Assembly (NCBI RefSeq): GCF_001936595.1
Contig: NZ_MLBG01000015.1
Span: forward strand, 1 to 60,323
DNA from: Desulfovibrio sp. DV
Lineage (GTDB): Bacteria; Desulfobacterota; Desulfovibrionia; Desulfovibrionales; Desulfovibrionaceae
DNA length: 60,323 nucleotides
Direction of reading: 5' to 3'
This document shows, piece by piece, positions 9,017 through 58,041 of the stretch (the stretch's first letter is position 1; the number at the start of each line of letters is the position of its first letter). Made by a program: the position numbers and the translations under genes. Below the pieces are notes generated by a model that worked only from the letters and a program-made list of their open reading frames with translations, did no database searches and was not told the DNA's origin.

Positions 9017-9019
9017 ATT

Positions 9020-9122
9020 GGGGCGCTGCCCCAAACCCCGCCAGGACGCTGTCCTGGACCTGCCAGGGCGTTGCCCTGGACCCACCGGGGGGGATCATCC
9101 CCCCGGACCCCCTGGATGGGGG
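9020..9122 (+). repeat. palindromic element copy 2 (class III, five hairpins)
   Basis: Begins four bases after the hydG stop. Five consecutive hairpins: 9020-9032, 9041-9057, 9063-9079, 9085-9106 and 9108-9122, the fourth with a one-base arm-length difference. It differs from copy 4 (behind comEC, 4.7 kb away) at only two positions over 103 bases. It probably ends or protects the hydG mRNA. Confidence 0.9.
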
Positions 9123-9268
9123 CGCATGGGGTGGCCTGGATAAGGGGCTGCTAGTGGGGCTGGGAGAACAGGAAGACTGGGGGGAGCGGAAGCTCTTGGC
9201 GGCTATGCCGCATGGTTCGCCTGGAAGGAAGAGCCCAGTTTGACGGCTCAAACGATACCTCAAAAAAT

Positions 9269-9284
9269 GCGGCCCCGGGGCCGC
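9269..9284. repeat. 16-base perfect palindrome between constant flanks
   Basis: GCGGCCCCGGGGCCGC, preceded by AAATG and followed by TGGCGAGTT. The same flanks at the other junction (around 14089-14142) hold a 23-bp stem instead. Confidence 0.8.
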
Positions 9285-9292
9285 TGGCGAGT

Positions 9293-9366
9293 TGGGGGTT
9301 GGAATTTGGGTCGATGGGGCAGCCGCCAAAGCCCGGCTGCCCCATCGACCCAAATTCCAACCCCCA
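9293..9366. repeat. 33-bp perfect hairpin
   Basis: Arms 9293-9325 and 9334-9366 are perfectly complementary around the 8-base loop CCAAAGCC. This is far longer than a normal terminator and has no T run. It lies between head-to-head elements 2 and 3. Confidence 0.95.
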
Positions 9367-9427
9367 TCTTCTCACGCCGACGCTGCCGCCGACGCCATAA
9401 CTCCCAATCCGCTTACCCTCTCCCGCT

Positions 9428-9481
9428 CCCCCCAACGAGGGGTCCGGGGGGATCATCCCCCCGGCCGCCGGAGGCATCTTC
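9428..9481 (-). repeat. palindromic element copy 3
   Basis: On the minus strand: purine tract, GCCTCCGGCGGCC, the GGGGGGATGATCCCCCC palindrome, then a CCCCTCGTTGGGG hairpin. It lies 3' of the minus-strand gene ending at 9524 and faces copy 2. Confidence 0.9.
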
Positions 9482-9523
9482 GTTTCCGCTTTCCCGAGTC
9501 CTTCCTCCGCCTCTCCCCAACTG

Positions 9524-9943
9524 TTACTTAAGCGACCCTATCTTGCCGAATTTATTGGATTCAGCCCGATAAAAGACGTTTTCAATGACTTTGTCGTTGC
9601 CGACGTCTTTGTAGTCGATGCGCACGGGGGAGCCGTCTTCTTTGACCTTGCGGAAAAAGTCGCCAATATTTTTAAATTTATCGGACCGCAAGCCGGGATC
9701 GACAACAAAAAAGCCCTGGCTGGTGACGATGGTGAGGACATTTTTGGTTTCCTGGACTTCTTCGACCAGGGCGGTGGTTTTTTTGTATTTTACCGCCAGG
9801 CTGTCTTCGGTGATAAAATCCATGACGTAGTAGGCGGCGACGATAAAAAGCAGAAAGGAAACGAGCAGGAGCACTTTCCCTTTATTCACGGCGAAATCGC
9901 CGATAATTTGCCGCACGCGTTCAAGCTTGGTCGTGTCAATCAT
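9524..9943 (-). CDS. small membrane-anchored protein of unknown function
   Basis: A 139-residue protein I do not recognise. Residues about 22-42 (VLLLVSFLLFIVAAYYVM) form one membrane helix after a charged N-terminus. The remaining ~95 residues are soluble, probably periplasmic, rich in K, V and D, with alternating beta-like stretches. GAGG precedes the ATG. It is the last gene of a minus-strand run with the DJ-1-like protein and the Cys-rich lipoprotein, but 177 bases and a terminator separate it from them. Its coding sequence is lower in GC than its neighbours. Confidence 0.75.
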   Translation of the reverse strand: MIDTTKLERVRQIIGDFAVNKGKVLLLVSFLLFIVAAYYVMDFITEDSLAVKYKKTTALVEEVQETKNVLTIVTSQGFFVVDPGLRSDKFKNIGDFFRKVKEDGSPVRIDYKDVGNDKVIENVFYRAESNKFGKIGSLK

Positions 9944-10077: not shown

Positions 10078-10120
10078 TTGTGCGCCAAAGACGGCGCGGG
10101 CCGCCACGGAAAAGTCGTTA

Positions 10121-11269: not shown

Positions 11270-13723
11270 GTGCAAACACCAGTACCGCGGCCCGCGCCCG
11301 GGGGAGTGCCGCCCCTGCTCCCCTGGCAACCCTGCCTGCTGGCTTATGCCGCCGGCATTTTGGCCGTGGCTTTTTTCCTGCCGGCACTGTGCGCCTTGCT
11401 CCTGCTGCTTTTGTTTCCGCGCCCCATGGCCGGCAGCCCGCGACCGGCCGCCTTCCTCCTGGCCTTTGCCCTGGGCTTGGGAGCCGGGTTCCTGGCCATG
11501 CCAACGCCCCTGGAGGCCACGCCGGACTGTCTGGCCAAGACGCCCGTGACGGCCACGGGCCGCGTGGCCGAGGTCGATCCCCGGCCGGGCAACCGGCAGG
11601 CCGTTTTGCTCGATGGCGTGCGTCTCACCGGCGGCGAGTGCCGGGATGTCCCCCTGCCCGGCCGGCTGGCCGTCACCATCGACCATCCGGCCTTCGATCC
11701 CGTGCCCGGCGATGTCCTGGCCGTCACCGGCCGGCTGCGCCCGACCAGCGGCTTCGCCAATCCCGGCACCACCGATTTCGCCTTCCTGCGCCGCCTGGAC
11801 GGCGTCTTTTTCCGCACCTTTGCCCGAGGCGACCGCGAGCAGGTCAAACGGCTGTCCCAGGGACACCATGTCCTGGCCTCCTGGCGGCAGGCCCTGCGCG
11901 CCCGGGTCGCCGCCGCCCTGGCCCCGGCCCCGACCCCTGACGCGCCCCGACCCGACACCGCCGCCAATGCCGGACGGGCCATGGTGCCGGCGCTCCTTTT
12001 CGACGACAAATCCGGCTTCACCGAGGACGACCTCGACCTGGTGCGCCGGGCGTCATTGGCCCACACCCTGGCCCTGTCCGGCATGAATGTGGGCTATGTG
12101 GTCGCCCTGGCCACGGCCCTGGTCCTTTGCCTCGGCAAAATCACTCCGAGCGTCTACCTGCACCTTCCCCGGCCGCGCCTGATCGTGCTCGTGGCCGCAC
12201 CCCTGGTGGCAGCCTATTGCTGGATCGGCGGGGCCTCGCCGTCGCTTATGCGGGCCGGCCTCATGTTCGCCGCCTTTGGCCTCATGCTGCTCCTTCGCCG
12301 CGACAAGGCCCTGTTCGACGGCCTGTTTTTGGCCCTGGCCGTCTTTTTGATCGTCTCGCCCCTGGCCGTTTTCAGCGCCAGCCTGCAACTCTCGGCCCTG
12401 GCCGTGGCCGGCATCGCCCTGTTCTGGCCGCCCTTCACCCGCTTCACCCGGCGCATCCCCGGCCAGGGACTCCCCCGCACCGCGCTCGTCTGGACGCTTG
12501 GCGTCCTTTGGACCAGCATCAGCGCCGAAGCAGCCGTCCTGCCGCTGCTCGCCCGGCTCTTTGGCGACTGGCCGTTCAACCCCTGGATCAATCTCCTGTG
12601 GCTGCCGGTCCTCGGCGGCCTGGTCATGCCGCTGGTCCTTGGCGGCGCGGCCCTGGTCGCCGTACCCGGACTGGAACAGGCCGCCGCCCTGCTCCTTCAC
12701 GCCGGGGCCGACTGCTGCGCCTGGCTCATGCGCACCCTGGCCGCCATAGACGCCCAGGGGCTGCTCGTCTCCAACGCCGTCCTGCGCCCCACCTGGCCGG
12801 AACTGCTCGGCTGCTACGGCCTGCTCGCCATCCTGGCCCTGGCCGCCTCCGGCCGCGCCCTGCCCCGCGCCGCCCTGGCCGCAAGCCTCCTCCTGCTCCT
12901 GACGCCAACCACCCTGCGCCTGATCGAAGACAGCCGGCCAGACGTCAGCCTCACCGTCTTCGACGTGGGCCAGGGCCAGTCCGTGGCCGTCACCATCCCC
13001 GGCGGCCGCCGCCTGCTCATCGACGCCGGCGGCCTGTTCGGCAGCTTCGACGTGGGCCGGGCCGTGGTCGGCGCAAGCCTCACCCACGGACGCCCGCCAC
13101 ACATCCATATGGCCTTCGCCAGCCACCCCCACAGCGACCACGTCAAAGGCTTCGTCTCCCTGCTCACCCGCTTCACCGTCGACGCCTGGTACGACAACGG
13201 CGGCACCCCCGAAGGCGAACTGGCCACCCCCATCGCCGCCGCCCTGGCCAAACACGCCATCCCCCAACAGGCCCTGGCCGCAGGCGACACCCTCGACCTC
13301 GACATCGACCATGGCCTTCGCCTCGAAGTCCTCCATCCCGGCCCGGACGACGACCGCAACACCAATAATGGCTCCCTCATCCTGCGCCTGACCCAAAACG
13401 GCCACGGACTGGCGATCTTCCCAGGCGACGCCGAAACCCGCATCCTCCGAAAACTCGCCGCCTCCGGCCGCAATATCCAGGCCGATATCCTCGTCGTTCC
13501 GCACCACGGTTCGTCATCGAGCTTCGCCAAACGCTTCTACACCGCCGTCGCCCCCAAAATCGCCATCGCCAGCGCCGGCGACTCCGGCCCCTACCCGTCC
13601 GGCAAAGTCTTCGACGCCCTGGCCCGCCTCGGCTGCACCACCTACGCCACCAACCGCAACGGCGCTGTCACCGTGCGGGTTGACGGCGAAGGGAACATCG
13701 GCAGGGTGGAGACGCAGCGATGA
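11270..13723 (+). CDS. comEC: ComEC/Rec2-family DNA uptake channel
   Basis: An 817-residue inner-membrane protein with the full ComEC layout. An N-terminal DUF4131-like region (about 1-190) is followed by a Competence multi-helix region containing AHTLALSGMNVGYV (about 215-540), and a C-terminal metallo-beta-lactamase domain (from about 555) with DVGQGQS and the metal motif SHPHSDH. ComEC carries single-stranded DNA across the inner membrane during transformation, and the C-terminal domain is thought to degrade the other strand. The start is GTG with only a poor ribosome binding site. No other competence gene is nearby, so natural transformation is possible but not shown. Confidence 0.93.
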   Translation: MQTPVPRPAPGGVPPLLPWQPCLLAYAAGILAVAFFLPALCALLLLLLFPRPMAGSPRPAAFLLAFALGLGAGFLAMPTPLEATPDCLAKTPVTATGRVAEVDPRPGNRQAVLLDGVRLTGGECRDVPLPGRLAVTIDHPAFDPVPGDVLAVTGRLRPTSGFANPGTTDFAFLRRLDGVFFRTFARGDREQVKRLSQGHHVLASWRQALRARVAAALAPAPTPDAPRPDTAANAGRAMVPALLFDDKSGFTEDDLDLVRRASLAHTLALSGMNVGYVVALATALVLCLGKITPSVYLHLPRPRLIVLVAAPLVAAYCWIGGASPSLMRAGLMFAAFGLMLLLRRDKALFDGLFLALAVFLIVSPLAVFSASLQLSALAVAGIALFWPPFTRFTRRIPGQGLPRTALVWTLGVLWTSISAEAAVLPLLARLFGDWPFNPWINLLWLPVLGGLVMPLVLGGAALVAVPGLEQAAALLLHAGADCCAWLMRTLAAIDAQGLLVSNAVLRPTWPELLGCYGLLAILALAASGRALPRAALAASLLLLLTPTTLRLIEDSRPDVSLTVFDVGQGQSVAVTIPGGRRLLIDAGGLFGSFDVGRAVVGASLTHGRPPHIHMAFASHPHSDHVKGFVSLLTRFTVDAWYDNGGTPEGELATPIAAALAKHAIPQQALAAGDTLDLDIDHGLRLEVLHPGPDDDRNTNNGSLILRLTQNGHGLAIFPGDAETRILRKLAASGRNIQADILVVPHHGSSSSFAKRFYTAVAPKIAIASAGDSGPYPSGKVFDALARLGCTTYATNRNGAVTVRVDGEGNIGRVETQR

Positions 13724-13741: not shown

Positions 13742-13844
13742 GGGGCGCTGCCCCGGACCCCGCCAGGACGCTGTCCTGGACCTGCCAGGGCGTTGCCCTG
13801 GACCCACCGGGGGGGATCATCCCCCCGGACCCCCTGGATGGGGG
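13742..13844 (+). repeat. palindromic element copy 4 (class III, five hairpins)
   Basis: Nearly identical to copy 2 (two differences in 103 bases). Hairpins at 13742-13754, 13763-13779, 13785-13801, 13807-13828 and 13830-13844. It starts 18 bases after the comEC stop. Confidence 0.92.
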
Positions 13845-13930
13845 CATGGTACGGCCGGGGTGAGGGACCGATGCGAACGCGAAGTGTGGGAGGACTGTTG
13901 GCGCGGGAGCGCTTGGCGGCTGTGCCGCAT

Positions 13931-14223: not shown

Positions 14224-14283
14224 TTCTCTTCGCTCCGCCTTCGGCTCCCGCCGCAGACGACGGCCCCAACCCGCTTACCCAAT

Positions 14284-14345
14284 ACCCCCCCAATCGAGGG
14301 GTCCGGGGGGATCATCCCCCCGGCCGCCGGAGGCATCTTCTGCCT
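14284..14345 (-). repeat. palindromic element copy 5
   Basis: Minus strand: purine tract, GCCTCCGGCGGCC, GGGGGGATGATCCCCCC palindrome and a CCCCTCGATTGGGG hairpin. It is 3' of trpS and faces copy 4. The last ~45 bases match copy 3 closely. Confidence 0.9.
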
Positions 14346-14398
14346 TCGCGCTTCCTCACTTCACTCCATTGCACTCCGCTCCACTCACCCCACTTCAC

Positions 14399-15406
14399 TT
14401 AAAAAACAAAATTCAGCTTCTTCTTCAGCGCATCCAGATTGCGGCTTGCCCGGGCGCGGGCCACGGTATTGCCGGCTTCCAGGAGATCCCAGACGAGGTT
14501 GGGGTCTTTATCGAAGGCTTTGCGGCGGTCGCGGATGGGTTCGAGGAAGGCGTTCATGGATTCGACGAGCAATTTTTTGCAGTCGCCGCAGCCCCAGGTG
14601 GCGTGGGTGCAGCCGTCGATGATTTCGGGCAACCGGGCGGCGTCGGTGAGCAGTTCGTGGTAGGGGAAGAGGTTGCATTCCTTGGGATCGCCGGGGTCGG
14701 TCAGCCGGGCGCGTTTTTCGCAGGTGAGCATGCTCATGACTTTTTTCTTCATGGCATTGGGCTCTTCGGACAGGCCGATGGCGTTGCCGTAGCTTTTGCT
14801 CATTTTGCGGCCGTCGAGACCGGGCAGTTTCGAGTCCGGGGTGAGCAGGGCCTGCGGTTCGACGAAAAAGTTGCCGTAGAGATTATTGGCCCGACGGGCG
14901 ATTTCCCGGGTCAACTCCAGGTGGGGCAGCTGGTCGAGGCCGACGGGCACGAAGGCCGGCTTGTACAGGAGGATATCCGAGGCCATGAGCACGGGATAGC
15001 CGAGGAAACCGTAGGTATTGAGTTCTTTGGCGGCCAATTCCTGAAGCTGGTCTTTGTAGGTGGGGCAGCGTTCCAGCCAGGGCACGGGGGTGGTCATGGA
15101 CAGGAGCAGATGCAGCTCGGCGTGTTCCTTGACCTGGGACTGCTGGAAAATCACGCATTTTTGCGGATCGAGTCCGCCGGCCACCCAGTCTTTGACCAGA
15201 TCGGGCACAAAACCTTTGATGCGTTTGGGATCGGCGTATTCGGTGGTCAGGGCGTGCCAGTCGGCCACGAAGAAGTAGCATTCGTGGCTGTCTTGCAGGT
15301 TGATCCAGTTTTTGAGCACACCGAAGTAGTGGCCGAGGTGCAGGGCTCCGGTGGGGCGCATACCGGAGACGATCCGTTTGTTTTCCTTGGGGGTATTTTC
15401 GCTCAT
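14399..15406 (-). CDS. trpS: tryptophanyl-tRNA synthetase
   Basis: A 335-residue class I aminoacyl-tRNA synthetase that charges tRNA-Trp. The HIGH-type motif is LHLGHYFG near residue 20 and the KMSKS motif is intact (GRKMSKSYGN). The length is normal for bacterial TrpS. It follows the M50 protease gene by 55 bases on the same strand and is probably cotranscribed from the promoter at 16384-16412. No T-box or Trp-codon leader is visible. Element copy 5 lies just behind it. Confidence 0.96.
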   Translation of the reverse strand: MSENTPKENKRIVSGMRPTGALHLGHYFGVLKNWINLQDSHECYFFVADWHALTTEYADPKRIKGFVPDLVKDWVAGGLDPQKCVIFQQSQVKEHAELHLLLSMTTPVPWLERCPTYKDQLQELAAKELNTYGFLGYPVLMASDILLYKPAFVPVGLDQLPHLELTREIARRANNLYGNFFVEPQALLTPDSKLPGLDGRKMSKSYGNAIGLSEEPNAMKKKVMSMLTCEKRARLTDPGDPKECNLFPYHELLTDAARLPEIIDGCTHATWGCGDCKKLLVESMNAFLEPIRDRRKAFDKDPNLVWDLLEAGNTVARARASRNLDALKKKLNFVF

Positions 15407-16964: not shown

Positions 16965-17162
16965 ATGATAACCGTGACCATCGATGGCAAAAAACCACCG
17001 CTGACCTACCCCAAACTCAAGACCGTGCTCCAATTGCTCCACAATCTTAACCTTCGCGTCAATGATGCCCTGATCATCCGCGACGGCGAGTTGCTCACCC
17101 CGGACCGCCACCTGTGGCCCGGCGACGAGATCACCGTGCGCCGGGTCGTCTCCCGAGGCTGA
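16965..17162 (+). CDS. ubiquitin-like sulfur carrier (ThiS/MoaD/TtuB type)
   Basis: A 65-residue beta-grasp protein resembling ThiS, MoaD and TtuB: MITVTIDGK opening, LQLLHNLNLRVNDALIIRDG in the middle and PGDEITVRRVVS near the end. Such proteins carry sulfur as a C-terminal thiocarboxylate on a Gly-Gly tail. Here the protein ends VVSRG, with one glycine only, so the tail is Arg-Gly. The next gene on the strand encodes a TtuA-type tRNA thiolase, the natural acceptor of such a carrier, and no E1-like activating enzyme is nearby. No clear ribosome binding site precedes the ATG; a GCCGGC repeat pair just upstream could fold over it. Confidence 0.85.
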   Translation: MITVTIDGKKPPLTYPKLKTVLQLLHNLNLRVNDALIIRDGELLTPDRHLWPGDEITVRRVVSRG

Positions 17163-17180: not shown

Positions 17181-17262
17181 GAGAGAAGAGGGAAGAGAGC
17201 CTCCGGCGGCAAGGACTGAGTCCCTTTGGAATCCCCTCCAGGGGGAGTTTGATTGGACCGGG
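17181..17262 (+). repeat. palindromic element copy 6 (class II, partly decayed)
   Basis: Purine tract GAGAGAAGAGGGAAGAGA, GCCTCCGGCGGC, then a damaged first hairpin (AAGGACTGAGTCCCTTT, lacking three bases present in copy 15) and a CCCCTCCAGGGG hairpin. It lies behind the sulfur-carrier gene and before the thiolase gene. Confidence 0.85.
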
Positions 17263-17323
17263 GGCACCGGCCAGGCCGGGCGCTTGATGCATCCGATATT
17301 CCAAGAAAGGACAAACTGACCGT

Positions 17324-18262: not shown

Positions 18263-18322
18263 GGGAAGAGAAAGAGAGCCTCCGGCGGCCGGGGGGATAA
18301 TCCCCCCCGGACCCCCTTGATA
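18263..18322 (+). repeat. palindromic element copy 7
   Basis: Starts 18 bases behind the thiolase stop with a purine tract, then GCCTCCGGCGGCC, GGGGGGATAATCCCCCC and a short CCCCC..GG stem. It faces copy 8 about 100 bases away. Confidence 0.88.
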
Positions 18323-18418
18323 GGAAAAGTATTTCAAGTGGTTCTGGATGATGGACGGCAAACTGGCCGGCTACCGACCGGATTGCCAACCAGCCCCGAG
18401 AAAGCCCTTAAACCACTT

Positions 18419-18471
18419 CTCCCAGTGAGGGGTCCGGGGGATCATCCACCCGGCCGCCGGAGGCTCTTCCC
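18419..18471 (-). repeat. palindromic element copy 8
   Basis: Minus strand GCCTCCGGCGGCC, an imperfect GGTGGATGATCCCCC palindrome and a CCCCTCACTGGG stem. It is 3' of the aminotransferase gene and head to head with copy 7. Confidence 0.85.
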
Positions 18472-18485
18472 CAGCTCCAGCTCTG

Positions 18486-19619
18486 CTAGCGGACGAGCAC
18501 CTCGCCCAGATCCTTCAGATACGCTTCGAGCATGGCCGGGGTGATGTCGCCCATGTGGCCGATGCGGAAAATCGGACGCTGCCCGGCGGCTTCGAGATCT
18601 TCGTTGAGCTTGGCGTAGCCGGGATCGAACAGATAGCCCCGGGGACGCAGGGCTTCCTTGATGGCCCGCAAATCCGCCGCAGCCATACCCGGAGCCGCAG
18701 CCACGGCCGTGACCGTTGGTGAACGGAAGCCCTCGGCGGCAAAAAGCGCATAGCCGGGCAGGGTCTTGACAAAGGCCACCGTCATCTCCCGCATGGCCTC
18801 GTGTCGGGCAAAACGTGCGGCCAGCCCTTCTTCTTCCACGATATAACGCAGTTGCAGATACATCTGGTTGCCCAGTGCGCCGTTTGGCGTGGACTGGGTC
18901 TGGAATTTCTCGGCCCGGCCCAGGTGGCTCAGGATGTCCGTGGCATGGCCCCGGCAGGTGACATGCCGGGCTTTCTCAATGGCGGCCGGACTCACAAACC
19001 CAATGCCGAAGCCGGCGTGCAACCCCAGGGCCTTCTGGGTGGCGGTAGCGTAAAAATCACAGCCGGAGGCGGCTATGGGGCACGGCGCGCCGCCAAAAAT
19101 GCTCACCCCGTCGACCAGGGCCAGGGCGCCGTGGGCCTTGATGATTTTGCACAGGGCCGGCACATCGTTGGCAAGGCCGGTTGATGTCTCGTTGTGGGTG
19201 ATGGCCACAACCGCCGGTTTGTGCTCGGCCATGGCCGCCTCAAGCACGGCCGGATCGACCGGCCGGCCCGGCTCAAAAGCCAGATGCACGGTCTTTTTGC
19301 CGTTGGCCACCGACATCTTGTGCCACAGGTCGCCAAAGGCCCCGACCGTGGCGTGGAGCACGGTCTCATCCTCGGCCACCAGCGACCGGATGGACGCTTC
19401 CATGGCTGTCGAGCCCGAGCCCAGAAACAGGATGGTGCGGTAATCGGCAGGCAGATCGGCAATGACGCCGAGATTATGGAAAATGGATTCGAAGCGCTTG
19501 GCGTTCTCGGCGTCGCGGTGGCCGTATTCGGGCCAGGCCCCGGCGGCGCGCACCTCGGGCCGGATATAGGTCGGGCCGGTGATGAAAAGCGTGATCTCCG
19601 GAAACGGCGCGTTGGCCAT
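18486..19619 (-). CDS. class V PLP-dependent aminotransferase
   Basis: A 377-residue pyridoxal-phosphate enzyme of the alanine-glyoxylate / serine-pyruvate aminotransferase group. ITGPTYIRPEV is the family's N-terminal signature, GSGSTAMEASI binds cofactor phosphate, VDGVSIFGG carries the cofactor aspartate and ATQKALG holds the Schiff-base lysine. AGGGAG sits 7 bases before ATG 19619. An open frame continues ~300 bases upstream but passes through repeat copy 9 and is not credible as protein. Likely substrates are serine, alanine or phosphoserine with glyoxylate or pyruvate; I cannot choose. Confidence 0.9.
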   Translation of the reverse strand: MANAPFPEITLFITGPTYIRPEVRAAGAWPEYGHRDAENAKRFESIFHNLGVIADLPADYRTILFLGSGSTAMEASIRSLVAEDETVLHATVGAFGDLWHKMSVANGKKTVHLAFEPGRPVDPAVLEAAMAEHKPAVVAITHNETSTGLANDVPALCKIIKAHGALALVDGVSIFGGAPCPIAASGCDFYATATQKALGLHAGFGIGFVSPAAIEKARHVTCRGHATDILSHLGRAEKFQTQSTPNGALGNQMYLQLRYIVEEEGLAARFARHEAMREMTVAFVKTLPGYALFAAEGFRSPTVTAVAAAPGMAAADLRAIKEALRPRGYLFDPGYAKLNEDLEAAGQRPIFRIGHMGDITPAMLEAYLKDLGEVLVR

Positions 19620-19954
19620 ATGACTGCTCCCTGTTGCGGTAAGCGGGGAATCATACGGAAAAAGAGCAGGGGCTGCAATGCGCCAGAAATGGAGGAGAAT
19701 GAAGAGAAGATGCCTCCGGCGGCCGGGGGGATGATCCCCCCGGACCCCTGCAAAGGGAGAAGTTTGCAAAGGGGGTTTTGGCGCGGGCTGGCCATGCGTT
19801 CGGCTGTGGTCCTGGACAGGCGAAGGGAAGGCGCGACGCGAACCGGTGCGGCTGCGGCGACCGGGTGAATCTCGCCCCCGGGCCAGGGGCGAGCGGTTGG
19901 GCATGGATGCTGCAATATGGGGGGCGGCCGGCAAAATCGGCCAGGGAGACGACT
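19620..19954. other. intergenic stretch with repeat copy 9
   Basis: Between the aminotransferase start and the small lipoprotein. Apart from element copy 9 I see no gene or clear promoter; the rest is GC-rich unique sequence. Confidence 0.5.
19701..19793 (+). repeat. palindromic element copy 9
   Basis: Plus-strand orientation: GAAGAG purine tract, GCCTCCGGCGGCC, GGGGGGATGATCCCCCC and a CCCCTGCAAAGGG hairpin, then a tail shared with copy 12. It does not follow a plus-strand gene, an exception in the family; it may mark a lost gene end. Confidence 0.85.
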
Positions 19955-23964: not shown

Positions 23965-24043
23965 GCCGCACTCCTCCCCGGCTCTTTCTGGCGGGATTAC
24001 ACCGCGGCCCGGGGCAGGTGCCGCCCGTGTCCCAATGCGCACG

Positions 24044-24120
24044 CCCGGTCAAATCACCCTCCCCCCGGGTGGGATTCCAAAGGGGTCACCCCTTTGGCCG
24101 CCGGAGGCTCTCTTTTTCCC
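24044..24120 (-). repeat. palindromic element copy 10 (class II)
   Basis: Minus strand: purine tract, GCCTCCGGCGGCC, first hairpin AAAGGGGTGACCCCTTT, second CCCACCCGGGG. It is directly 3' of the 1048-residue gene. Confidence 0.9.
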
Positions 24121-24125
24121 TCTCC

Positions 24126-27100
24126 CTACACCCCGCCCAGGCGGACGTCCCGGCCAAGCAGGCTGTTTTGCAGGGTCAGCGGTTCGGCCGGGGGATGGCG
24201 CAGGGCCAGTTCCTGGAGATCGTCCAGGTAGCGCCGGGCGTGGCTTAAATAAAACGACAGGGCCGGGGCGAATTTGCGCCCGACCAGTCCTTCGATAAAT
24301 AGCCGGCTGATCTCGCGCTCGCGCAACAGCACGTACTGCGACAGGAGGAACATCCGCCGTTCCTCCGAGGACATGGACCGCATGGCCCGGGCCAGGACCG
24401 TGCGCGCCCGGGGCTGGTACATCCAGAAATAGAGGAAATCCAAGGCGTTTACGATGACGATCTTGTCCAGGTCGCCTTTCTGGGAGCCGATGGAGGTGAT
24501 GAACTCCTTGGGCGTTTCCAGCAGCTTGGCCACATCGTCGCTGGGAAAGAGCAGTTCCAGCAGGGAATAGGTGTCATAGAGCTGCTTGAATTTTTCCCGG
24601 TAGTCGCGAAGGCGCATCCGCACGTATTTGGCCCGGTCGGCCAGCCCTTCGATGACGGCGGCCACGCAGTCCGAAGCGAACTTGGACACGATGGCGGCAA
24701 AGGGTTCAAGGGCCAGTTCGGGATCGATGATGCCGCCGTGGGCCAGCAGCCAGGCCAGCCCCTGGTTCAGGCCAAAGGCCAGAGGGATGGACACGACCGA
24801 GCGGAAAAGGTTGCCGACGGCTGCAGATTTGGGCAGCCCGCGCAGCAGGTTGTGGCTGGCCAGATAGAGGCCGTTGGCCACGGCCATGCAGGCGAAAAGG
24901 AGCAAGGGATTGCTTGACGTGGTGACGCCCAGGCCCTGGCCCAGCAAAAGCGTGCGCACCACGATGTCGAGCAGCGGCACGGAAAAGCCGGTAAAGAGCA
25001 GCGAGTCGGCCAGTCGGTCGAAGCTGACGTAGTCCTTCCAGGTTAAAAGCGGGCTGCGCCGCAGGCCGCCGCAGCCGAGCACGGCCTGGATGACGTTACG
25101 AACGCCGGTGATGCCAAACCAGATAAACGGCCCCAGCCAGGCCAGCACCCACCAGGAATTGATGCTGGCAAAGGACGCGGCGGCCACGGAAAAGCCCAGG
25201 CCGATCTTGAGCGCATTTTTGAGTGTGCCGCTCAGATAGCGCCAGGACAGGCGAAGCGGCCGGCGAAGCGCCTCGGCCCGGGCCAGGAAACGCTGGCTGG
25301 CCTTTTGCTGGATGCCGCCCAGGGTGTGGATATTGGCCGTGCCCGGCGTGGCCTTGAAAAACCGCTGGGCCACCCAGTCCAGGACATAGCGGTACCCGGC
25401 CAGCCGCAGTCCGGGCAGGCCGCGCAGGAAGCGGAAAAACCGGGCGGAGAGTTCGCTGGAAAATTCATCGGGCAGGGTGCTCACCCGGGGCGTGACCGTC
25501 ACGCCGACGGGGATGGCCCGGCGCAGGCTTTGCCCGGGATGCCTCTCGCGTCGGGCCAGCCGTTTCCTGGTCCGGGCCGGCAGGCTGTCGGCCACCACCA
25601 GCCCCATGCCGTGGCAGCGGGTGGACTGGCCGGTGGAGTCCGTGCCGATGCGGGCAGACAGCGGCCGCTGGCGGTAGGCGCCGGCAATGGCGGCGACGTC
25701 CTGGCGAAGGGCCCGAAGGGCGGCAGCCACCTCCCCTGCCCCCTCGGCTTCGGCCGTATCGGCCGTGCGGGTGAGCAGGCGTTTTAAGGCCACCACGTTG
25801 CCGGCATTGACGATGGACAAAAGGCCCAGGGTCTCGCCGCCGTCGCCGCCGCCGGTCTCAAAAACCCGCAGGTTAAACGCGTCGCAGTCGGTGATCTCCC
25901 CCCGGCAGGCAAAAAGGACCAGCAGAACGTCGGGCAGGGCCATCTCGGCGGTGCAAAGGGCCAGCTTGTTGTGGAAATGCAGGGCGCTTATGCGTTCGGT
26001 CAGTTCGGCCGGGCTGATGGTCAGGCGGGGGGGCAGGGTTTCACCCGGCAGGGCGGCCTCAGGCGGGGCGATTTCCGGGTTGGCGGCCGGGGACAGGTAA
26101 TCGTCGAGAATGGCCTCGACATCCAGGCTGTCGCGCTCGGCCAGATAGGGGCAGGCTCCCTGGGGGTCGGCCTGATCCATGGTTTCGCCGGCCCGGGCGT
26201 CGAGCAAGGGGCGCAGGGCGTCGTGGATAAACCGGGCCAGATGCAGCAGGCTGGCCTGGCCGGAACCGACAAAGGCCAAAAATTCTTCGGGATCAAGGGG
26301 TTCCAGGGGCAACTCATAGCGCTCCCGGATGGTGTGGCGGTGGCGGTCGTTAAAGGCTGTGAGCAGGGACAGGATGTAATGCTGCTGGCGCAGCGACAGC
26401 TCAAAGCCTTCGCGCATGAATTCGCGCATCCCGGGCTTTTTGAGAAAGGCGCTGAAATCCTCCGGCCGGGCAAAGCCGCGCGGCGTCCAGACGATCTTGA
26501 CATGCCCGCCCTGGTGGCTGGCCAGGCATTCGATGCCGATATCCACGCCCATGTCCATGATGGCGGCGGCTTCGAGGAGCTCGGCCGCCGTCTCCGGACG
26601 CACAAAATGGTAGTGGATGACGGTGAGCCGGCGGATGCCCTTGATCCAGGCGTCCATGATGAGATGGGTGGGCGATTTGCGGCCCTTGGTATTGGCATCG
26701 TGGACGTGGTCGTCGAAGGCGATCTGGTTCCATTCCTCGGGCATTTCCAGCAGATGGTATTCGGCCAGGAGCTTTCGCACCACCCGGGGGCGGCCTGAGA
26801 CGGCGCTTCTGAAGTCATGGGCCAGTTCCAGCTGGCGGCGGGGAGTGTCCCGGGAGCGCACCAGTTCTTTCATGATCTGGAGCAGCACCCGGGCCGTATT
26901 TTTCTCAAGCCCTGATTCGGCGGCGGCCATGACCTCGTCGCGAAGCGAGCGAAGGGCTGTGAGCCGGTCGCCGGCCATGCCGGCCTCCAGCGACCCGAGC
27001 AGGTGGATGACGGCATAGGCGATGCGCAGCCCCTTGGGCGCGGCCATCTCCTTGATGCCATGGGGATGGAGGTAGGGGGCGAGCAGGCGCTTCAGGCTCG

Positions 27101-27455: not shown

Positions 27456-28947
<1,492 letters not shown>

Positions 28948-28970: not shown

Positions 28971-29050
28971 CAGGGGAGAAGAGGCCTCCGGCGGCCAAAG
29001 GGCAGTGCCCTTTGGAATCCCACCCGGGGGCGTTTGCTCGGACCGGGCGC
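28971..29050 (+). repeat. palindromic element copy 11 (class II)
   Basis: Behind the flavin enzyme: purine tract, GCCTCCGGCGGCC, hairpin AAAGGGCAGTGCCCTTT, second hairpin CCCACCCGGGGG, then GTTTGCTCGGACCGG. Confidence 0.9.
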
Positions 29051-29181
29051 GGTGCCGGGGCGAGGCGCGAAAAATGACGGGAAGAGGCTGGTGGCCTCAC
29101 GCCCGCCCCGCCGCCGGTCGCCCGGCGAGGCCCGGCGACGGGGAGTCCTGCGTGCCGGCCCGGCACATCATTCCTTACAAC

Positions 29182-40411: not shown

Positions 40412-41052
40412 GCGGTGAATCCTGGCTTCCCCGGCTGCTCGGCTGCCGCCTGCCGCCGGATCCCGTCATCGTCGACGGCGGGGCCAACAAGGGCCATGTG
40501 GCCGCCCGGCTGTTGGCCGCCCTGCCCCGCGCCCGGCTCCACGCCTTTGAACCCCAGCCGCGCCTGGCCCGAAAACTCGCCAAGCGCTTTGCCGGCGATC
40601 CCAGGGTGGCCGTCCACCCCGTGGCCCTGGGCGCATCCCCGGCCACCCTGCCGCTCACCGTCCTGTCCCGGCCCACCCTGTCCTCACTGTTTGCACCAAC
40701 CGGCATCCAGGACAAGTACGCCGGCCAGGATCTGAGCGTCACCGCAATCGTGGACGTGCCGGTCGTGCGCCTGGACGCGGTCCTTGGCCGGGCCGACGTC
40801 ATCAAACTGGATTTGCAGGGCTACGAGCTGCCGGCCCTTTCCGGAGCCACGGCGCTTTTGCCCGAGGTATCGGTGGTGGTGGCCGAGACGGCGCTCTATC
40901 CGCTCTACCAGGGGCAGGCGCTTTTGCCGGAGCTGGCGGCCTATCTGGAAGGATTCGGGCTGGCGCTTGACGGGTTGTACGATTTCTACCGCGACGCCTC
41001 CGGCCGCATCGCCTCAGGTGACGCCGTTTTCGTGCGGCATACGCCGCAGTGA
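40408..41052 (+). CDS. FkbM-family methyltransferase
   Basis: A 214-residue SAM-dependent O-methyltransferase of the FkbM type. The SAM-binding glycine motif is VIVDGGANKGHVA, and DVIKLDLQGYELPALSGA is the family's late signature. Such enzymes often methylate sugars of surface polysaccharides. The four-base overlap with the preceding sensor gene implies they are made together. Across the convergent junction are glycosyltransferase genes, which fits a surface-glycan role, but the acceptor is unknown. Confidence 0.9.
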   Translation: MSGESWLPRLLGCRLPPDPVIVDGGANKGHVAARLLAALPRARLHAFEPQPRLARKLAKRFAGDPRVAVHPVALGASPATLPLTVLSRPTLSSLFAPTGIQDKYAGQDLSVTAIVDVPVVRLDAVLGRADVIKLDLQGYELPALSGATALLPEVSVVVAETALYPLYQGQALLPELAAYLEGFGLALDGLYDFYRDASGRIASGDAVFVRHTPQ

Positions 41053-41060: not shown

Positions 41061-41160
41061 GAGAGGGAAAGAAGAAGGGGGAATGCCTCCGGCGGCCGGG
41101 GGATGATCCCCCCGGACCCCTGCAAAGGGAAAAATTTTCAAGGGTCTTGGCGCTGGCTGC
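41061..41160 (+). repeat. palindromic element copy 12
   Basis: Follows the methyltransferase: polypurine tract, GCCTCCGGCGGCC, GGGGGATGATCCCCCC palindrome, CCCCTGCAAAGGG hairpin and a tail shared with copies 9 and 17. It faces copy 13. Confidence 0.9.
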
Positions 41161-41218
41161 CCAAACGGCCCCTACTCGTCTTGCCTTCCCCAACTTCCGC
41201 CCGTCGTCGTGGCAGTGT

Positions 41219-41314
41219 ATCCGGTCAAATCAGACTGACCCCAGGCGGGTTTCCAAAGGGCACTGCCCTTTGGCCGCCGGAGGCTCTCTTCCCTCTTCTC
41301 TCACTCCCTCGGCC
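41219..41314 (-). repeat. palindromic element copy 13 (class II), read into the glycosyltransferase
   Basis: Minus strand: GAGAGAAGAGGGAAGAGA tract, GCCTCCGGCGGCC, AAAGGGCAGTGCCCTTT hairpin, CCCGCCTGGGG hairpin and GTCTGATTTGACCGG. The glycosyltransferase frame stays open through it and stops on the TGA at 41230-41232. Confidence 0.9.
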
Positions 41315-47238: not shown

Positions 47239-47290
47239 AAGGAGATGCCTCCGGCGGCCAAAGGGCACTGCCCTTTGGACACCCGCAATA
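47239..47290 (+). repeat. palindromic element copy 14 (class II, short)
   Basis: GCCTCCGGCGGCC and hairpin AAAGGGCACTGCCCTTT with a purine lead (AAAGGAGAT). The second hairpin is lost. It lies between two minus-strand genes in the orientation expected behind a plus-strand gene, an exception. Confidence 0.85.
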
Positions 47291-47404
47291 CGTTTGGAAT
47301 GTTGCGGATCCAGGCCAGGGTTGGTCTCCAAAAAAATTGCATCGTGCAAAAGCCTCAAGCCCCCTTTTTTACCACGAGACCGGCGGGTTGAGCCAGTGCC
47401 ATTT

Positions 47405-49794: not shown

Positions 49795-49892
49795 CAGTCG
49801 CTATCCGTCCTCGTTACATCGTTCCCCGTTGCAGGAGCCTGTCCCCGTCTTCCCATGCTCAACTTCCACGCACCGGTCAGGCAACACCCACC

Positions 49893-49981
49893 GTCCAATC
49901 AGCCATCCCCCAGGCGGGGATTCCAAAGGGACTCAGTCCCTTTGGCCGCCGGAGGCCTCTTCCCTCTTCTCTCTTCTCTCC
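49893..49981 (-). repeat. palindromic element copy 15 (class II)
   Basis: Minus strand: purine tract GAGAGAAGAGAGAAGAGG, GCCTCCGGCGGCC, hairpin AAAGGGACTGAGTCCCTTT, second hairpin CCCCGCCTGGGGG, then GGCTGATTGG. It lies 3' of the flavoprotein gene ending at 50001. Confidence 0.9.
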
Positions 49982-50000
49982 TGCCCGCCACTCTCTCCCT

Positions 50001-51565: not shown

Positions 51566-52903
51566 ATGACAAAACGCACCTACGATCTGGCCATCATCGG
51601 CGCTGGCCCGGCCTGCGGCCCGGCCGCCCGGCGTTGCCGCGAGGCCGGCTGGTCCGTGGCCATCATCGAATCCGGCCTCCTTGGCGGCGTGTGCCCGCAC
51701 ACCGGCTGCAATCCCAAAAAAGTGCTCATGGGGCCGGCCGAAGCCGTGACCATGGCCCGGCATCTGGCCGGCAAGGGCCTTTCCGGCGAACCCCGGCCCG
51801 ACTGGCCGGCCATGGCCGCCTTCACCCGGACCTTCACCGAACCCGTGGCCCCCTGGCTGGCCCGGCACTACCGCGAGGCCGGCATCGACGTGATCGAGGG
51901 CCGGGCCGCCTTCACCGGCCCAAACACCCTGGCGGCCGGCGACACGACCATCGTGGCCAAAAAAATCCTCATCGCCACCGGAGCCACCCACCAGCGTTTC
52001 GACTTCCCCGGAGCCGAACATCTGCAAACCAGCGACGATTTCCTGGCCCTGGAGACGCTTCCGGCCCGCATCGTCTTTGTCGGCGGCGGCTTTGTGGCCT
52101 TCGAACTGGCCCATCTGGCCCACGTCTGCGGCGCGCGCGCCACCATCGTAACCCATGGCGACACCGCCCTTCGCCGGTTTGATCGCGACGCCGCCTCCCG
52201 CCTCATCGAGGCCACCCGGGCCATGGGCATCGCCGTCCACGTCAACGCCCCGGTGGGGCGCATCGACAAGGAGCCCCATGGCCTGTGCCTGAGCGCCCCG
52301 GGCCTGGATATCGCCGCCGACATGGCCGTCAACGCCGCCGGCCGGCCAGCCCAGATCAAAAAACTCGGCCTGGATCTGGCCAATGTCGCCGCCGGCCCGG
52401 CCGGCATCCGCGTCAACGCCTTCCTGCAAAGCACCACCAACCCCGACGTCTATGCCGCCGGGGACTGCCTGGACGCCCCCTATGCCCTGACCCCCACGGC
52501 CGACCTGGAAAGCCGCACCGCCGCCGAAAACATGCTGGCCGGCAATACCACGCCCATCAACCGCACCGGCACGCCAAGCGTCCTTTTCACCCAGCCGCCC
52601 CTGGCCATGGCCGGACTGACCGAGGCCGACTGCCAGACCCAGAACATTCCCTACACCAAAAAGGAATACGACCTCGCCGAGGCCTTCCCCTGGCAACGCC
52701 TGGGCGAACACCCCGGTTATTCCAAAACCCTGGTCTCGCCCGACGACGACCGCATCCTCGGGGCGCATATCCTCGGCCACGCCGCCGACGAACTCATAAA
52801 CGTCGTGGCCCTGGCCATGCGTCAGGGGTTGCCGGCCAAGGCCCTTCGCGAAACCATCTGGGCCTATCCGACCTGCGGCTATTATCTGCGGTATATGTTT
52901 TAG
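51566..52903 (+). CDS. second FAD/NAD disulfide oxidoreductase, glutathione-reductase-like
   Basis: A 445-residue flavoprotein. FAD motif IIGAGPACGPAARR, redox CX4C in GGVCPHTGCNPKK, NAD motif VFVGGGFVAFELA and YAAGDCLDAPY. The end reads IWAYPTCGYYLRYMF, so the usual His-Pro-Thr and Glu of the dimer interface are missing here as well; Tyr replaces His. It is truncated or specialised relative to classical glutathione reductase. It shares an upstream region with the opposite enzyme of similar type. The start ATG 51566 has GAGG upstream; a more distant frame extension is not supported. Electron partner unknown. Confidence 0.88.
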   Translation: MTKRTYDLAIIGAGPACGPAARRCREAGWSVAIIESGLLGGVCPHTGCNPKKVLMGPAEAVTMARHLAGKGLSGEPRPDWPAMAAFTRTFTEPVAPWLARHYREAGIDVIEGRAAFTGPNTLAAGDTTIVAKKILIATGATHQRFDFPGAEHLQTSDDFLALETLPARIVFVGGGFVAFELAHLAHVCGARATIVTHGDTALRRFDRDAASRLIEATRAMGIAVHVNAPVGRIDKEPHGLCLSAPGLDIAADMAVNAAGRPAQIKKLGLDLANVAAGPAGIRVNAFLQSTTNPDVYAAGDCLDAPYALTPTADLESRTAAENMLAGNTTPINRTGTPSVLFTQPPLAMAGLTEADCQTQNIPYTKKEYDLAEAFPWQRLGEHPGYSKTLVSPDDDRILGAHILGHAADELINVVALAMRQGLPAKALRETIWAYPTCGYYLRYMF

Positions 52904-52968
52904 GGCAGCATCGGGGTGCTGCCCCGAGCCCTGCCGGGGGGATGATCCCCCGGCCCCCGCGACGGGGG
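52903..52968 (+). repeat. palindromic element copy 16 (class III, three hairpins)
   Basis: Three perfect or near-perfect hairpins start on the last base of the flavoprotein stop codon: 52903-52924, 52934-52953 and 52954-52968. Lacks the GCCTCC motif, like copies 2 and 4. Confidence 0.88.
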
Positions 52969-53032
52969 AGGCAATGCTTTAAAGCGCCGTGGCAATTGCC
53001 ACGAGCCTGCACCGGACGAGGGGGATGGAGCA

Positions 53033-55423: not shown

Positions 55424-55448
55424 GGGGTCTCGTATCCGGCGGGGTGTG

Positions 55449-55472
55449 GCCGGGGGCCCTTTGGCCCCCGGC
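55449..55472 (-). terminator. hairpin between M48 protease and cyclase genes
   Basis: GCCGGGGGCC and GGCCCCCGGC pair around CTTT. No T run, so it may slow or process rather than end transcription. Confidence 0.4.
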
Positions 55473-55495
55473 ACGGGAAGGGGAGCAACAGCCGG

Positions 55496-56413
55496 CTAGA
55501 TATCGCCCAGGGCGGCCTTGAAGCGGGCGGCCCGGACAGCCGGTTCGTTCACCTCGGCCACGCGGGCCAGGTTGGCCAGTTCGCTGATGCGGTCGCCAGG
55601 AGCGGGATGGGTCTTGGCAAAGTCCGCCCCGCCCGGAGACAGGCGTTTTTGCATTTCGGCCAACATGCCCGGCAGACCGGACGGGTTGTAGCCGGTGCGG
55701 GTCAGGATGGACACGGCGGCCTTGTCGGCCTGGTATTCCAGGGTGCGGGAGTAACCGTTGTTGACCATGGTGGTCATGATGTCGCCGATGGAATCGGCGA
55801 AAAGGCTGCTCAGCTGGGACAGTTGCCCGCCGCCGGCGTGCTTGACCGCCTCGCCGCCGATGATGCCCAGGGCTTGGGTGGTGCGGGCGCGTTTGATGGC
55901 CCGCAGCGCGTCCTTGTTCTGGACGTGGGCGATCTCGTGGGCCAGGACGGCGGCCAGGGCGTTTTCGCCGGAGCAGCAGCGCACCATGCCGCGGGTGATG
56001 AAAATGAGCCCGCCGGGCGCGGCAAAGGCATTGATCTCGGCCGAATCGAGGATGAGGAAGTGATACCCGCCATAGGTCTGGGGCATGTCCGAGAACATGG
56101 ACAGGGCCTGGCCCACCTCGTTGACGTAGGCGTTGGCCGCGGCGTTGTTGTAGGGCTGGTATTTGGCCAGAAGCGTCGCGCCGACGGCCCGGCCGATGTA
56201 GTATTCCTGCTGCGGGTTGAAGTCTTCGGCGGCATGGGCCACGGCCGAGGCCCCCTTGACGGCCGAGGCGGCATAGTCGCCGACGGGCACGCCGGCAACG
56301 CTGCCGCCAAAGGAACCAAGGGCCTGGGAAAGGGCCTCGGGGTTGCGGCAGCCGGCCAGGGCCAGGACAGCCAGGGCCAGGACGGCGCAGGCAATCAGGC
56401 TACGCGGTTTCAT
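55496..56413 (-). CDS. M48 metalloprotease lipoprotein
   Basis: A 305-residue exported zinc protease. MKPRSLIACAVLALAVLALAGC is a signal with lipobox LAGC. The HExxH site is LAHEIAHVQNKDAL and the third ligand lies in YQADKAAVSIL. It has no TPR domain, so it is closer to LoiP/YcaL than BepA. Such envelope proteases degrade misfolded outer-membrane proteins. It overlaps the SH3 protein gene by four bases (ATGA), and a GC hairpin lies between it and the cyclase. Confidence 0.92.
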   Translation of the reverse strand: MKPRSLIACAVLALAVLALAGCRNPEALSQALGSFGGSVAGVPVGDYAASAVKGASAVAHAAEDFNPQQEYYIGRAVGATLLAKYQPYNNAAANAYVNEVGQALSMFSDMPQTYGGYHFLILDSAEINAFAAPGGLIFITRGMVRCCSGENALAAVLAHEIAHVQNKDALRAIKRARTTQALGIIGGEAVKHAGGGQLSQLSSLFADSIGDIMTTMVNNGYSRTLEYQADKAAVSILTRTGYNPSGLPGMLAEMQKRLSPGGADFAKTHPAPGDRISELANLARVAEVNEPAVRAARFKAALGDI

Positions 56414-56892
56414 CGCGCCCCTCCCTGCGGTTTGACGTCGCCTTTGTTCAAAAAGGCGATCAGGGCGGCAGCGTCGTAGTGCACCCGCTCCATGGCGTCG
56501 ACAGCGGCGAAGTTGCCGCCGTGGCTGCGCTTGTAATCGGCCTCGACTTCAGCGGAAAAGCCCTTGCCGGCCAGGGCCATTTCCTTGCCCGACACGCTGC
56601 CGGGTGCGGCCGAGCCGCCGGACATGGCCAGTTTGTCCGTGGAAAGCGCGGTCTTGTGCATCCAGCCGGCCACGCCTCCGGGCAGCGTCACCTTGGACCA
56701 GTCACCCTGCTCTTCCAACACGTCCACGGACTGGCCGTAGCCGGCCTTGGCCACGATCTTGCCCAGAAACGACGGGGTCTCGCGGACCTGCCCGTCGCGC
56801 ACCGACACGCTCATGACCTTGGCGGCAATGGCCCAGGCCGTGCCCAGGCACAGAGCCAGGGCCAGGGCCAGTACCAGTTTTCGACTCCTCAT
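56410..56892 (-). CDS. exported SH3-domain protein
   Basis: A 160-residue exported protein. The N-terminal helix MRSRKLVLALALALCLGTAWAIA is a signal peptide. A bacterial SH3 domain follows (VRETPSFLGKIVAKAGYGQSVDVLEEQGDWSKV, ending VAGWMHKTALS). The last ~60 residues are polar. SH3 domains often bind cell-wall peptides. Its coupling to the M48 lipoprotein protease suggests a joint envelope role, perhaps targeting. Start ATG has AGGCAGG some bases away. Confidence 0.85.
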   Translation of the reverse strand: MRSRKLVLALALALCLGTAWAIAAKVMSVSVRDGQVRETPSFLGKIVAKAGYGQSVDVLEEQGDWSKVTLPGGVAGWMHKTALSTDKLAMSGGSAAPGSVSGKEMALAGKGFSAEVEADYKRSHGGNFAAVDAMERVHYDAAALIAFLNKGDVKPQGGAR

Positions 56893-56994
56893 GCCTGCCT
56901 CCTTGGCGGCGTCCGAAGACGCCGGTTTCCGGCCCCTCCCCAGGCGCAGGCAGGCGGAGCCGGCATAGTGCCGAATAATCGTTACAACGCCGAA

Positions 56995-57882
56995 TTACCG
57001 TTTCACCGTGACCTTGGCCAACTGCTCGAAATACCGGATGATGCTGCCGTGGTCGTCCTCGCCGCAGCCATCGGCCAGCATGGCCTGCATGACTTCCATG
57101 ACCGAGGCGGTAAACGGCAGAGGCACATGCAACTCGTGGGCCGTCTGCATGACGTTGGCCAGATCCTTGGCGTGGAGCTTGATGCGAAAGCCGGGATCGA
57201 ACTTGCGGTCCATGACCAGCGGAGCCTTGGCGTCGAGCACCGTGCTGCCGGCCAGCCCCCCCCGGATGGCCTGATAGACCAGCTCCGGCTCCACCCCGGC
57301 CTTGGCGGCCAGGACAAAGGCCTCGGACATGGCTGCGATATTAAGGGCCACCACGATCTGGTTGGCGAGCTTGGCCACATTGCCGGCCCCGACCTCGCCA
57401 ACCCGGGTGACGGCGGCGGACATGGCCGAAAGCACCGGGGAAACCGCCTCGAAATCGGCCGCATCGCCGCCGACCATGACGGTCAGCGTGCCGTCAATGG
57501 CCTTGGGTTCGCCGCCGCTGACCGGGGCGTCGAGAAACCGCACGCCCTTTTCGGCCAGGGCCGCCGCTATCTCCCGGCTGGCCAGGGGGGCGATGGAACT
57601 CATGTCCACGACGTAAAGGCCCGGTCGCGCGCCGTGGACAACGCCGGCCTCGCCCAGAAGGACCTCGCGGACCTGGGGTGAATCCGGAACCATGGTGATG
57701 ACCAGATCGCTGGCCTCGGCCACGGCGGCCGGCGACGGGGCGTAGGCGGCCCCATGGCTGGTGACGGCCTCGACATTGGCCTTGGTGCGGCTAAAGACGG
57801 TCAATTGGTAGCCGGCCGCAAGCAGATTGCGGCACATGGGCTTGCCCATGATGCCCAGGCCGATAAAGCCTATTTTTTTCAT
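56995..57882 (-). CDS. garR: beta-hydroxyacid dehydrogenase (tartronate semialdehyde reductase / 3-hydroxyisobutyrate dehydrogenase type)
   Basis: A 295-residue NAD(P) enzyme of the GarR/MmsB family. The nucleotide motif is GFIGLGIMGKPMCRNL, substrate motif FLDAPVSGGEPKAIDGTL and the catalytic lysine in GAGNVAKLANQIVVALN. Length is normal. The substrate could be tartronate semialdehyde (glyoxylate route), 3-hydroxyisobutyrate or succinic semialdehyde. The next gene downstream in coordinates, hydroxypyruvate isomerase on the same strand, favours tartronate semialdehyde. The glyoxylate carboligase that would complete the route is not in this window. Confidence 0.9.
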   Translation of the reverse strand: MKKIGFIGLGIMGKPMCRNLLAAGYQLTVFSRTKANVEAVTSHGAAYAPSPAAVAEASDLVITMVPDSPQVREVLLGEAGVVHGARPGLYVVDMSSIAPLASREIAAALAEKGVRFLDAPVSGGEPKAIDGTLTVMVGGDAADFEAVSPVLSAMSAAVTRVGEVGAGNVAKLANQIVVALNIAAMSEAFVLAAKAGVEPELVYQAIRGGLAGSTVLDAKAPLVMDRKFDPGFRIKLHAKDLANVMQTAHELHVPLPFTASVMEVMQAMLADGCGEDDHGSIIRYFEQLAKVTVKR

Positions 57883-57955
57883 TCTTTTTCCTCATCCGTT
57901 CAAAAAGAGGGCTTGGCAACATATCGCACGAGCACGCAAACCTCTCGTTTATACA

Positions 57956-58041
57956 CTTCTCCCTTTGCAGGGGTCCGGGGGGATCATCCCCCCGGCCGCC
58001 GGAGGCATTCCCCCTCTTCTCCTTTTCGCACTCCCTCGGCC
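57956..58041 (-). repeat. palindromic element copy 17, read into hyi
   Basis: Minus strand: purine tract, GCCTCCGGCGGCC, GGGGGGATGATCCCCCC palindrome and CCCCTGCAAAGGG hairpin. The hyi frame continues through the first part and stops on the TGA in the middle of the palindrome. Confidence 0.9.

Follow-up and report, generated by a model that had tools for sequence, protein, structure and literature searches.

The 60,323-nt stretch of Desulfovibrio sp. DV analysed here (NZ_MLBG01000015.1, contig 15 of a 4.85 Mb draft genome; hereafter the window) carries copies of a dispersed repeat family in which an 11-nt head, GCCTCCGGCGG, is followed by a GC-rich hairpin that differs from copy to copy while its arms remain paired. 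Within the genus the copies lie mostly just past stop codons in the sense orientation, and between related species their arms change less than the body of the copy. I tentatively read them as elements of 3' untranslated regions (3'-UTRs) that may work as RNA. Judged by the tRNA-synt_1b protein of the window, the host is a Solidesulfovibrio relative, since this protein shares 94% identity with its counterpart in Solidesulfovibrio aerotolerans and 87% with the one in S. alcoholivorans.

The 12-mer GCCTCCGGCGGC occurs 326 times in the genome against 4 times for a reversed control pattern, and a same-strand gene lies upstream of 46 of the 53 intergenic copies, where random placement would give 47.1% (P = 1.9e-9); the family is therefore real and not a product of chance. 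Each of the 14 genomes of the genus that were searched contains 130-388 copies of the 12-mer, and several other genera of the bacterial family hold from tens to more than 300. At least one 12-mer was found in 185 of 199 genomes of the family, many of them with a count near that of the reversed control, and a 13-mer was found 0-4 times in 17 genomes from other families of the order. Rfam at its gathering score returned no match in the window. In the literature, the 12-mer and CCGCCGGAGGC (from its reverse complement) occur in papers titled on other subjects, the phrase 'repetitive extragenic palindromic' appears once each in papers that also name Desulfovibrio, and none among the matches listed names Desulfovibrio together with Term-seq.

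The position of the copies was assessed in 842,078 bases of the genome, where I called genes with a simple codon-usage method of my own and found 69 head matches. The 58 followed by a hairpin were kept and the 11 without one left out; five of the 58 lie inside called open reading frames (ORFs), three of them in same-strand ORFs, and do not enter the intergenic count. The 53 intergenic copies comprise 27 in convergent regions, 19 sense and 6 antisense in tandem regions, and 1 in a divergent region, so that in tandem regions alone 19/25 are sense (P = 0.007). Nearly all of those with a same-strand gene upstream (45/46) lie 11-108 nt from its stop codon, and one lies 468 nt away. A bias to gene 3' ends, the absence of which the original prediction had named as evidence against function, is thus present. 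In other genomes, where head matches outside called ORFs were counted without a hairpin filter and with rougher gene calls, 46/60 copies in four relatives from the genus and 30/46 in five other genera (6/11, 7/9, 9/9, 7/11 and 1/6) follow a same-strand gene. Within the genus, then, the bias in orientation is real; beyond it, the bias is weaker or less well measured.

A copy runs from a purine tract through the head and the GC-rich hairpin to A, AA or AAT with a run of C, and then into a body, up to about 150 nt long, that diverges. Similarity between copies spans about -30 to about +180 of the head, which is longer than originally described, and 61 of 63 copies match their best other copy at a median identity of 80.8% over a median of 119 nt. 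In the copies listed, GCCTCCGGCGG stands before the hairpin and mostly GGA or GA after it; the foot is mostly closed by CC..GG or CT..AG, and ACCCC, AATCCC and AAACCC are common tails. There are two large subfamilies, with AAAGGG-type and GGGGGG-type arms, each with its own tail, and AGAGAGGGC is one of the hairpin types; the several variants of the first hairpin described by the original prediction all exist. The purine tract was considered as a core part and rejected, being a trait of the genus: the purine share is 85% at -25..-1 in the 58 own copies and 80-85% at -15..-1 in four relatives, and 41-61% in five other genera. Of 114 hairpins from the genus with a three-base loop, 80 have TGA there despite their differing arms; in other genera the few hairpins of this kind mostly show different loops.

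The hairpin itself is well beyond chance. It follows 58 of the 67 own heads that have 60 bases downstream, against a mean of 2.25 and a maximum of 5 in 100 shuffles of those bases, and the same hairpin criterion was passed at 189 of 4000 random places. About 2.0 Mb of sequence together with orthologue loci yielded 155 headed hairpins of 66 arm/loop types, a few of them by chance, and other genera bring very different arms, for example TTAAACCC..GGGTTTAA.

It had been proposed that the arms change together with pairing kept. The shuffle test bears out the pairing, but the change is not stepwise: because related species often have another hairpin type altogether at the same gene end, covariation between sites is mainly the exchange of whole hairpins and not stepwise compensation. 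The end of gene 24126-27272, for example, has three types in four genomes (differing in G133, G025 and G143, numbers denoting genomes) and none in G080 and G097. Shared-site comparisons, from which sites with unplaceable flanks are left out, found both same-type and switched sites between the own genome and G133 and G097. In the nearest pair, G025 and G143, with flanks mostly 89-98% identical, 0/13 sites with flanks placed on both sides had switched type; a cruder count scored 1/10 as switched. An excess of compensatory changes had also been expected. In 13 distinct 9+3+9 hairpins, a sample that had been picked by pairing, 98.3% of cells are paired (shuffle mean 80.3%, maximum 87.2%) and 26 show a double change (mean 7.8, maximum 15), but the 6 pairs with a double change are reached by shuffles and the 8 further pair types fall below the shuffle mean of 9.2. 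The case for an excess stays weak on this sample, and because the set was preselected I place the weight on the 58/67 shuffle test.

Constraint on the parts of the element was first counted with a near-intact head and similar arms required in the other genome (head and arms 5/441, body 140/1111). For that reason this count was replaced by one at shared sites that places no demand on the other genome's head, and the recount weakens the claim about the head. At nine same-type sites between the own genome and G133 and G097, changes number 0/99 in the head, 6/150 in the arms (the same-type label itself limits arm changes to 30%) and 279/1044 in the body (indels included), with P = 3e-13 for head against body and P = 6e-12 for arms against body; site 49956, whose types differ and which scored as 25% different, is left out, as are duplicate reverse rows and a row misaligned in one direction. 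At the 13 sites of G025 and G143 the arms again change less than the body (4/248 against 84/1493, P = 0.005). When 109 perfect hairpins of nine known arm types were found in six genomes without use of the head, 90 had the exact head; the remainder lack one or two bases of it, are units of arrays, are reversed or, in one case, are shifted. Both comparisons support constraint on the arms; for the head the support is partial, from one comparison and from the hairpin-anchored count.

Of the roles originally predicted, action at mRNA ends is best supported, because the copies stand in the sense orientation just after stop codons and their arms are under constraint; this prediction covered stabilising and terminating alike, and the terminating part is not supported, as canonical terminators are not depleted where elements occur. 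My preferred reading, held at a little under even confidence, is that of a dispersed family of 3'-UTR elements that would work as RNA, with a head that acts by sequence and a hairpin that acts by shape, serving as a 3'-end barrier or a binding site. The hairpin in the mRNA would be a barrier to 3'-to-5' exonucleases, and the ends trimmed would be those made by Rho-dependent or intrinsic termination further downstream; according to the abstract of PMC9927376, 3'-to-5' exonucleases remove the 3' ends left by Rho termination. The head might be read by sequence, as a site that a protein or an RNA binds, or as a fixed partner of the hairpin, and copies may spread and exchange whole hairpins through recombination or some copying mechanism that does without a repetitive extragenic palindromic (REP)-associated tyrosine transposase (RAYT).

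Several observations weigh against this reading. Stem mismatches on the sense strand are 10 G-U and 15 A-C, hence without a preference for G-U, some rows being chance matches, and give no sign of selection acting on the sense RNA; the folding of 80-nt stretches in 10 window copies beats shuffles only moderately (z from +0.12 to -2.98). Between G025 and G143 the head has fared no better than the body (6/143 against 84/1493, P = 0.57), because at 3/13 sites it has decayed in one genome, the hairpin still being present. Orientation is weaker outside the genus (1/6 in one genus and 6/11 in another), about 8% of genes have a copy and many orthologues lack one, and the gene models rest on my own simple codon-usage caller.

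The repeat spans several genera of a single bacterial family, and its paired arms are under constraint. It separates what such repeats do at message ends from their mobility, and its natural exchanges of hairpins at the same gene ends allow direct comparison. Understanding these elements would also aid genetics in sulfate reducers.

The elements could instead terminate transcription of the genes they follow, either as hairpin terminators whose U-tract is weak or missing or by hairpin-assisted Rho termination. This appears unlikely, although position and orientation fit, a possible second stem with TTTTGG or TTCTTGG after it can be seen in some GGGGGG-type copies, and the end of gene 30109-32484 has a canonical terminator in the own genome and G133 where G025, G143 and G080 have an element. 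Canonical terminators are not significantly depleted at element ends, whether convergent (5/26 against 27/114) or tandem (5/20 against 49/240), as judged by my own scanner, which is also positive in 9/82 divergent control regions. Moreover, several elements sit between the stop codon and a canonical U-tract terminator (e.g., 46740 of own contig C5), and at such sites the element lies inside the transcript, provided that those downstream terminators work. Intrinsic (Rho-independent) terminators resemble the elements in having a GC-rich hairpin just past the stop codon; the elements differ in their conserved 5' head, in the lack of a U-tract after the first hairpin, the second being at chance level overall, and in coexisting with canonical terminators. 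Neisseria uptake sequences, which sit in terminator hairpins at gene ends in hundreds of copies, likewise combine a fixed short word with gene-end hairpins, but here the word lies outside the stem and the stem itself varies.

The lack of a G-U preference among stem mismatches would also suit a palindrome acting in DNA, as a cruciform or as a site for an architectural or recombination protein, tolerated mainly downstream of genes. Perfect DNA palindromes occur, and partners in convergent regions face each other. However, orientation is biased in tandem regions too (19/25), which a symmetric palindrome would not need, though an asymmetric head could need it, and I regard a DNA-level role as decidedly unlikely. 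Slightly more doubtful still is a particular form of RNA-level action, a family-specific code for mRNA 3' ends in which a trans-acting factor of the bacterial family would recognise the 11-nt head by its sequence and the hairpin by its shape.

Mobilisation had also been raised in the original prediction, as a RAYT-type REP family. In this case the copies would be REPs or miniature inverted-repeat transposable elements moved by a Y1 transposase (RAYT or IS200/IS605-like), with gene ends as a safe haven. They are dispersed in hundreds of copies with a median identity of 80.8% to the best other copy, their layout, with a short conserved sequence at the foot of the hairpin, is similar to that of REPs, a second head-like motif lies downstream in 7/26 subfamily-A copies by eye (3/63 by pattern), and a Y1_Tnp match is present in 8/14 genomes of the genus, in some of them within an open frame of roughly 150 aa. 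Nevertheless, no Y1_Tnp (PF01797) match was found in G080, the most copy-rich genome (388 copies, 3 contigs), in G121 (130 copies, one contig), or in G109, G160, G167 and G174, and the own genome has one broken remnant. Across the bacterial family 74/199 genomes have a match, and those with at least 14 (G031, G039, G147 and G163; a count of 21 in a genome possibly meaning at least 21) have 0-20 copies of the repeat. There is no GTAG/CGTC tag at the hairpin foot, nor were clean empty sites seen in the few cases of absence looked at. Mobilisation by such a transposase is accordingly very improbable. REP-like repeats are often explained by their transposase, and here the genome in which they are most abundant lacks a Y1 transposase match. 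Miniature elements derived from IS200/IS605 are dispersed, as these copies are, and have same-strand hairpins, a layout that the copies may share; no transposase association is seen here where copies are most numerous. Di Nocera et al. (2013; PMC3733652), in whose main text 'Desulfo' and 'deltaproteo' do not occur, describe REPs as short intergenic palindromes in hundreds of copies, mostly in convergent or tandem regions near the 3' end of the upstream gene, and CGTC REPs as likewise without a known transposase. The elements share with GTAG/CGTC REPs a number above 100 per genome (326), an intergenic location and proximity to gene 3' ends; they differ in lacking the tag and, in several copy-rich genomes, a Y1 gene, and in having an 11-nt head, an orientation biased relative to the gene and hairpins exchanged between sites.

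I give just as little credence to selfish or neutral repeats spread by recombination and kept alike by gene conversion instead of selection: presence and absence differ between species, types switch at the same site and heads have decayed at 3/13 sites of the nearest pair, but where species share a site of the same type, the body of a copy diverges while its arms change less, and gene conversion reaching far enough to exchange the tail would make the body uniform as well. Carriage on plasmids or phages was rejected as the means of spread: the hairpin region of one copy gave three weak plasmid matches (43-45 bits), and another copy gave none in phages.

A second, varying hairpin had been described as part of the element. 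Such a hairpin can be drawn in single copies; over 152 elements, though, the longest complementary run between the tail and the sequence downstream is 4.82 against 4.80 when permuted, a value reached by 74/200 permutations, and a conserved second hairpin is not confirmed. The tail is instead associated with the arm: in fixed register its agreement with the parallel complement of the 5' arm is raised (0.693 against 0.535 +/- 0.022 over 34 types, 0/5000 permutations; 0.67 against 0.515 over 21 collapsed classes, 0/5000), and its antiparallel agreement is not (0.564 against 0.539, 600/5000). With free sliding over 40 types the parallel and the antiparallel match are both raised (4.38 against 3.75 and 4.12 against 3.70), and over 14 collapsed classes the antiparallel is clearer than the parallel (1 against 81 of 3000 permutations). 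These permutations treat hairpin types as independent though the types are related. The association is real, and the tail may fold back as a third strand, an intramolecular triple helix capping the 3' end; I consider this because the fixed-register parallel match is the relation expected of a third strand, and hold it weakly because sliding raises both matches and favours the antiparallel in collapsed classes.

In the window, all seventeen places listed by the original prediction exist (Table 1). Its statement that most share a common sequence is borne out by the exact 12-mer in 14/17, the places at 9017, 13742 and 52904 being arrays without it. So is its count of fourteen in one orientation 3' of a gene, made up of 9 headed copies 17-64 nt from a same-strand gene, 2 that overlap same-strand ORF ends (58006 and 41284) and the 3 arrays; the exceptions are 1-34, 19712 and 47247. 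The copy at 17199 stands outside the 58 hairpin-bearing heads because of the decay of its hairpin.

Table 1. Elements and hairpin arrays in the window, with the hairpin found at the corresponding site in related genomes.
Positions	Strand	Feature	Head, first base	Setting	Related genomes
1..40	-	element cut by contig end	3-14 (whole head), with purine tract	not 3' of a called gene	
9017..9130	+	headless hairpin array		directly after gene 7580-9016	
9395..9500	-	element, GGGGGG-type	9475	48 nt past stop of gene 9524-9943	G133 same type
13742..13850	+	headless hairpin array		after gene 11306-13723	
14250..14360	-	element, GGGGGGATGATCCCCCC	14334	64 nt after tRNA-synt_1b gene 14399-15406	GGGGGGCTCAGCCCCCC in G025 and G143; GGGGGAATGATTCCCCCC in G080; none in L073 (S. 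alcoholivorans)
17181..17290	+	element, decayed AAAGGGAC-type hairpin	17199	36 nt after ORF 16965-17162	GGGAGGGGG type in G133
18263..18370	+	element, GGGGGGATAATCCCCCC	18278	33 nt after gene 17324-18244	
18380..18490	-	element, GGGTGGATGATCCCCC	18464	21 nt after gene 18486-19619; convergent partner of 18263	
19701..19810	+	element, GGGGGG-type	19712	no same-strand gene called upstream	AAAGGGC type in G133
24020..24133	-	element, AAAGGGGTGACCCCTTT	24108	17 nt after gene 24126-27272	see text
28971..29080	+	element, AAAGGGCAGTGCCCTTT	28984	36 nt after gene 27868-28947	other hairpins in G133 and G080; none in G025, G097 and G143
41061..41170	+	element, GGGGGATGATCCCCCC	41085	32 nt after gene 40408-41052	
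41200..41310	-	element, AAAGGGCAGTGCCCTTT	41284	overlaps 3' end of ORF 41230-42465	G133 same hairpin
47239..47345	+	element, AAAGGGCACTGCCCTTT	47247	between two minus-strand genes	absent in G133
49870..49985	-	element, AAAGGGACTGAGTCCCTTT (AAAGGGAC type)	49956	44 nt after gene 50001-51443	GGGGGG-type in G133
52904..52980	+	headless hairpin array		after gene 51566-52903	
57920..58031	-	element, GGGGGG-type	58006	overlaps 3' end of ORF 57984-58856	

The headless arrays at 9017-9130, 13742-13850 and 52904-52980 consist of units of the form CC-arm-loop-arm-GG, with a tail like the parallel complement of the arm, and stand directly after stop codons. The ORFs called at 41284 and 58006 run into the element, which would then encode their last residues.

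At the border of tract and head, 91 of 130 copies from the genus have ATG, GTG or TTG after the purine tract, which resembles a Shine-Dalgarno sequence; copies with ATG would read Met-Pro-Pro-Ala-Ala. A small ORF at this place was rejected, as the frame is not kept open (a stop within 25 codons in 51/130, against 90 and 59 in the other frames) and the bases before the head vary in other genera.

Some copies are compound. In the own genome, two heads lie 38 nt apart around a purine tract at C11 48427 and at C12 33333, where one element seems to have been copied into or beside another, and a locus of another genus (L268 17737, in G227) forms a long, nearly perfect palindrome that has the head on each strand. 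Finally, the contig starts of the window and of contigs C5, C8, C18 and C22 lie within 15 bases of a head, and the repeats seem to have broken the draft assembly.

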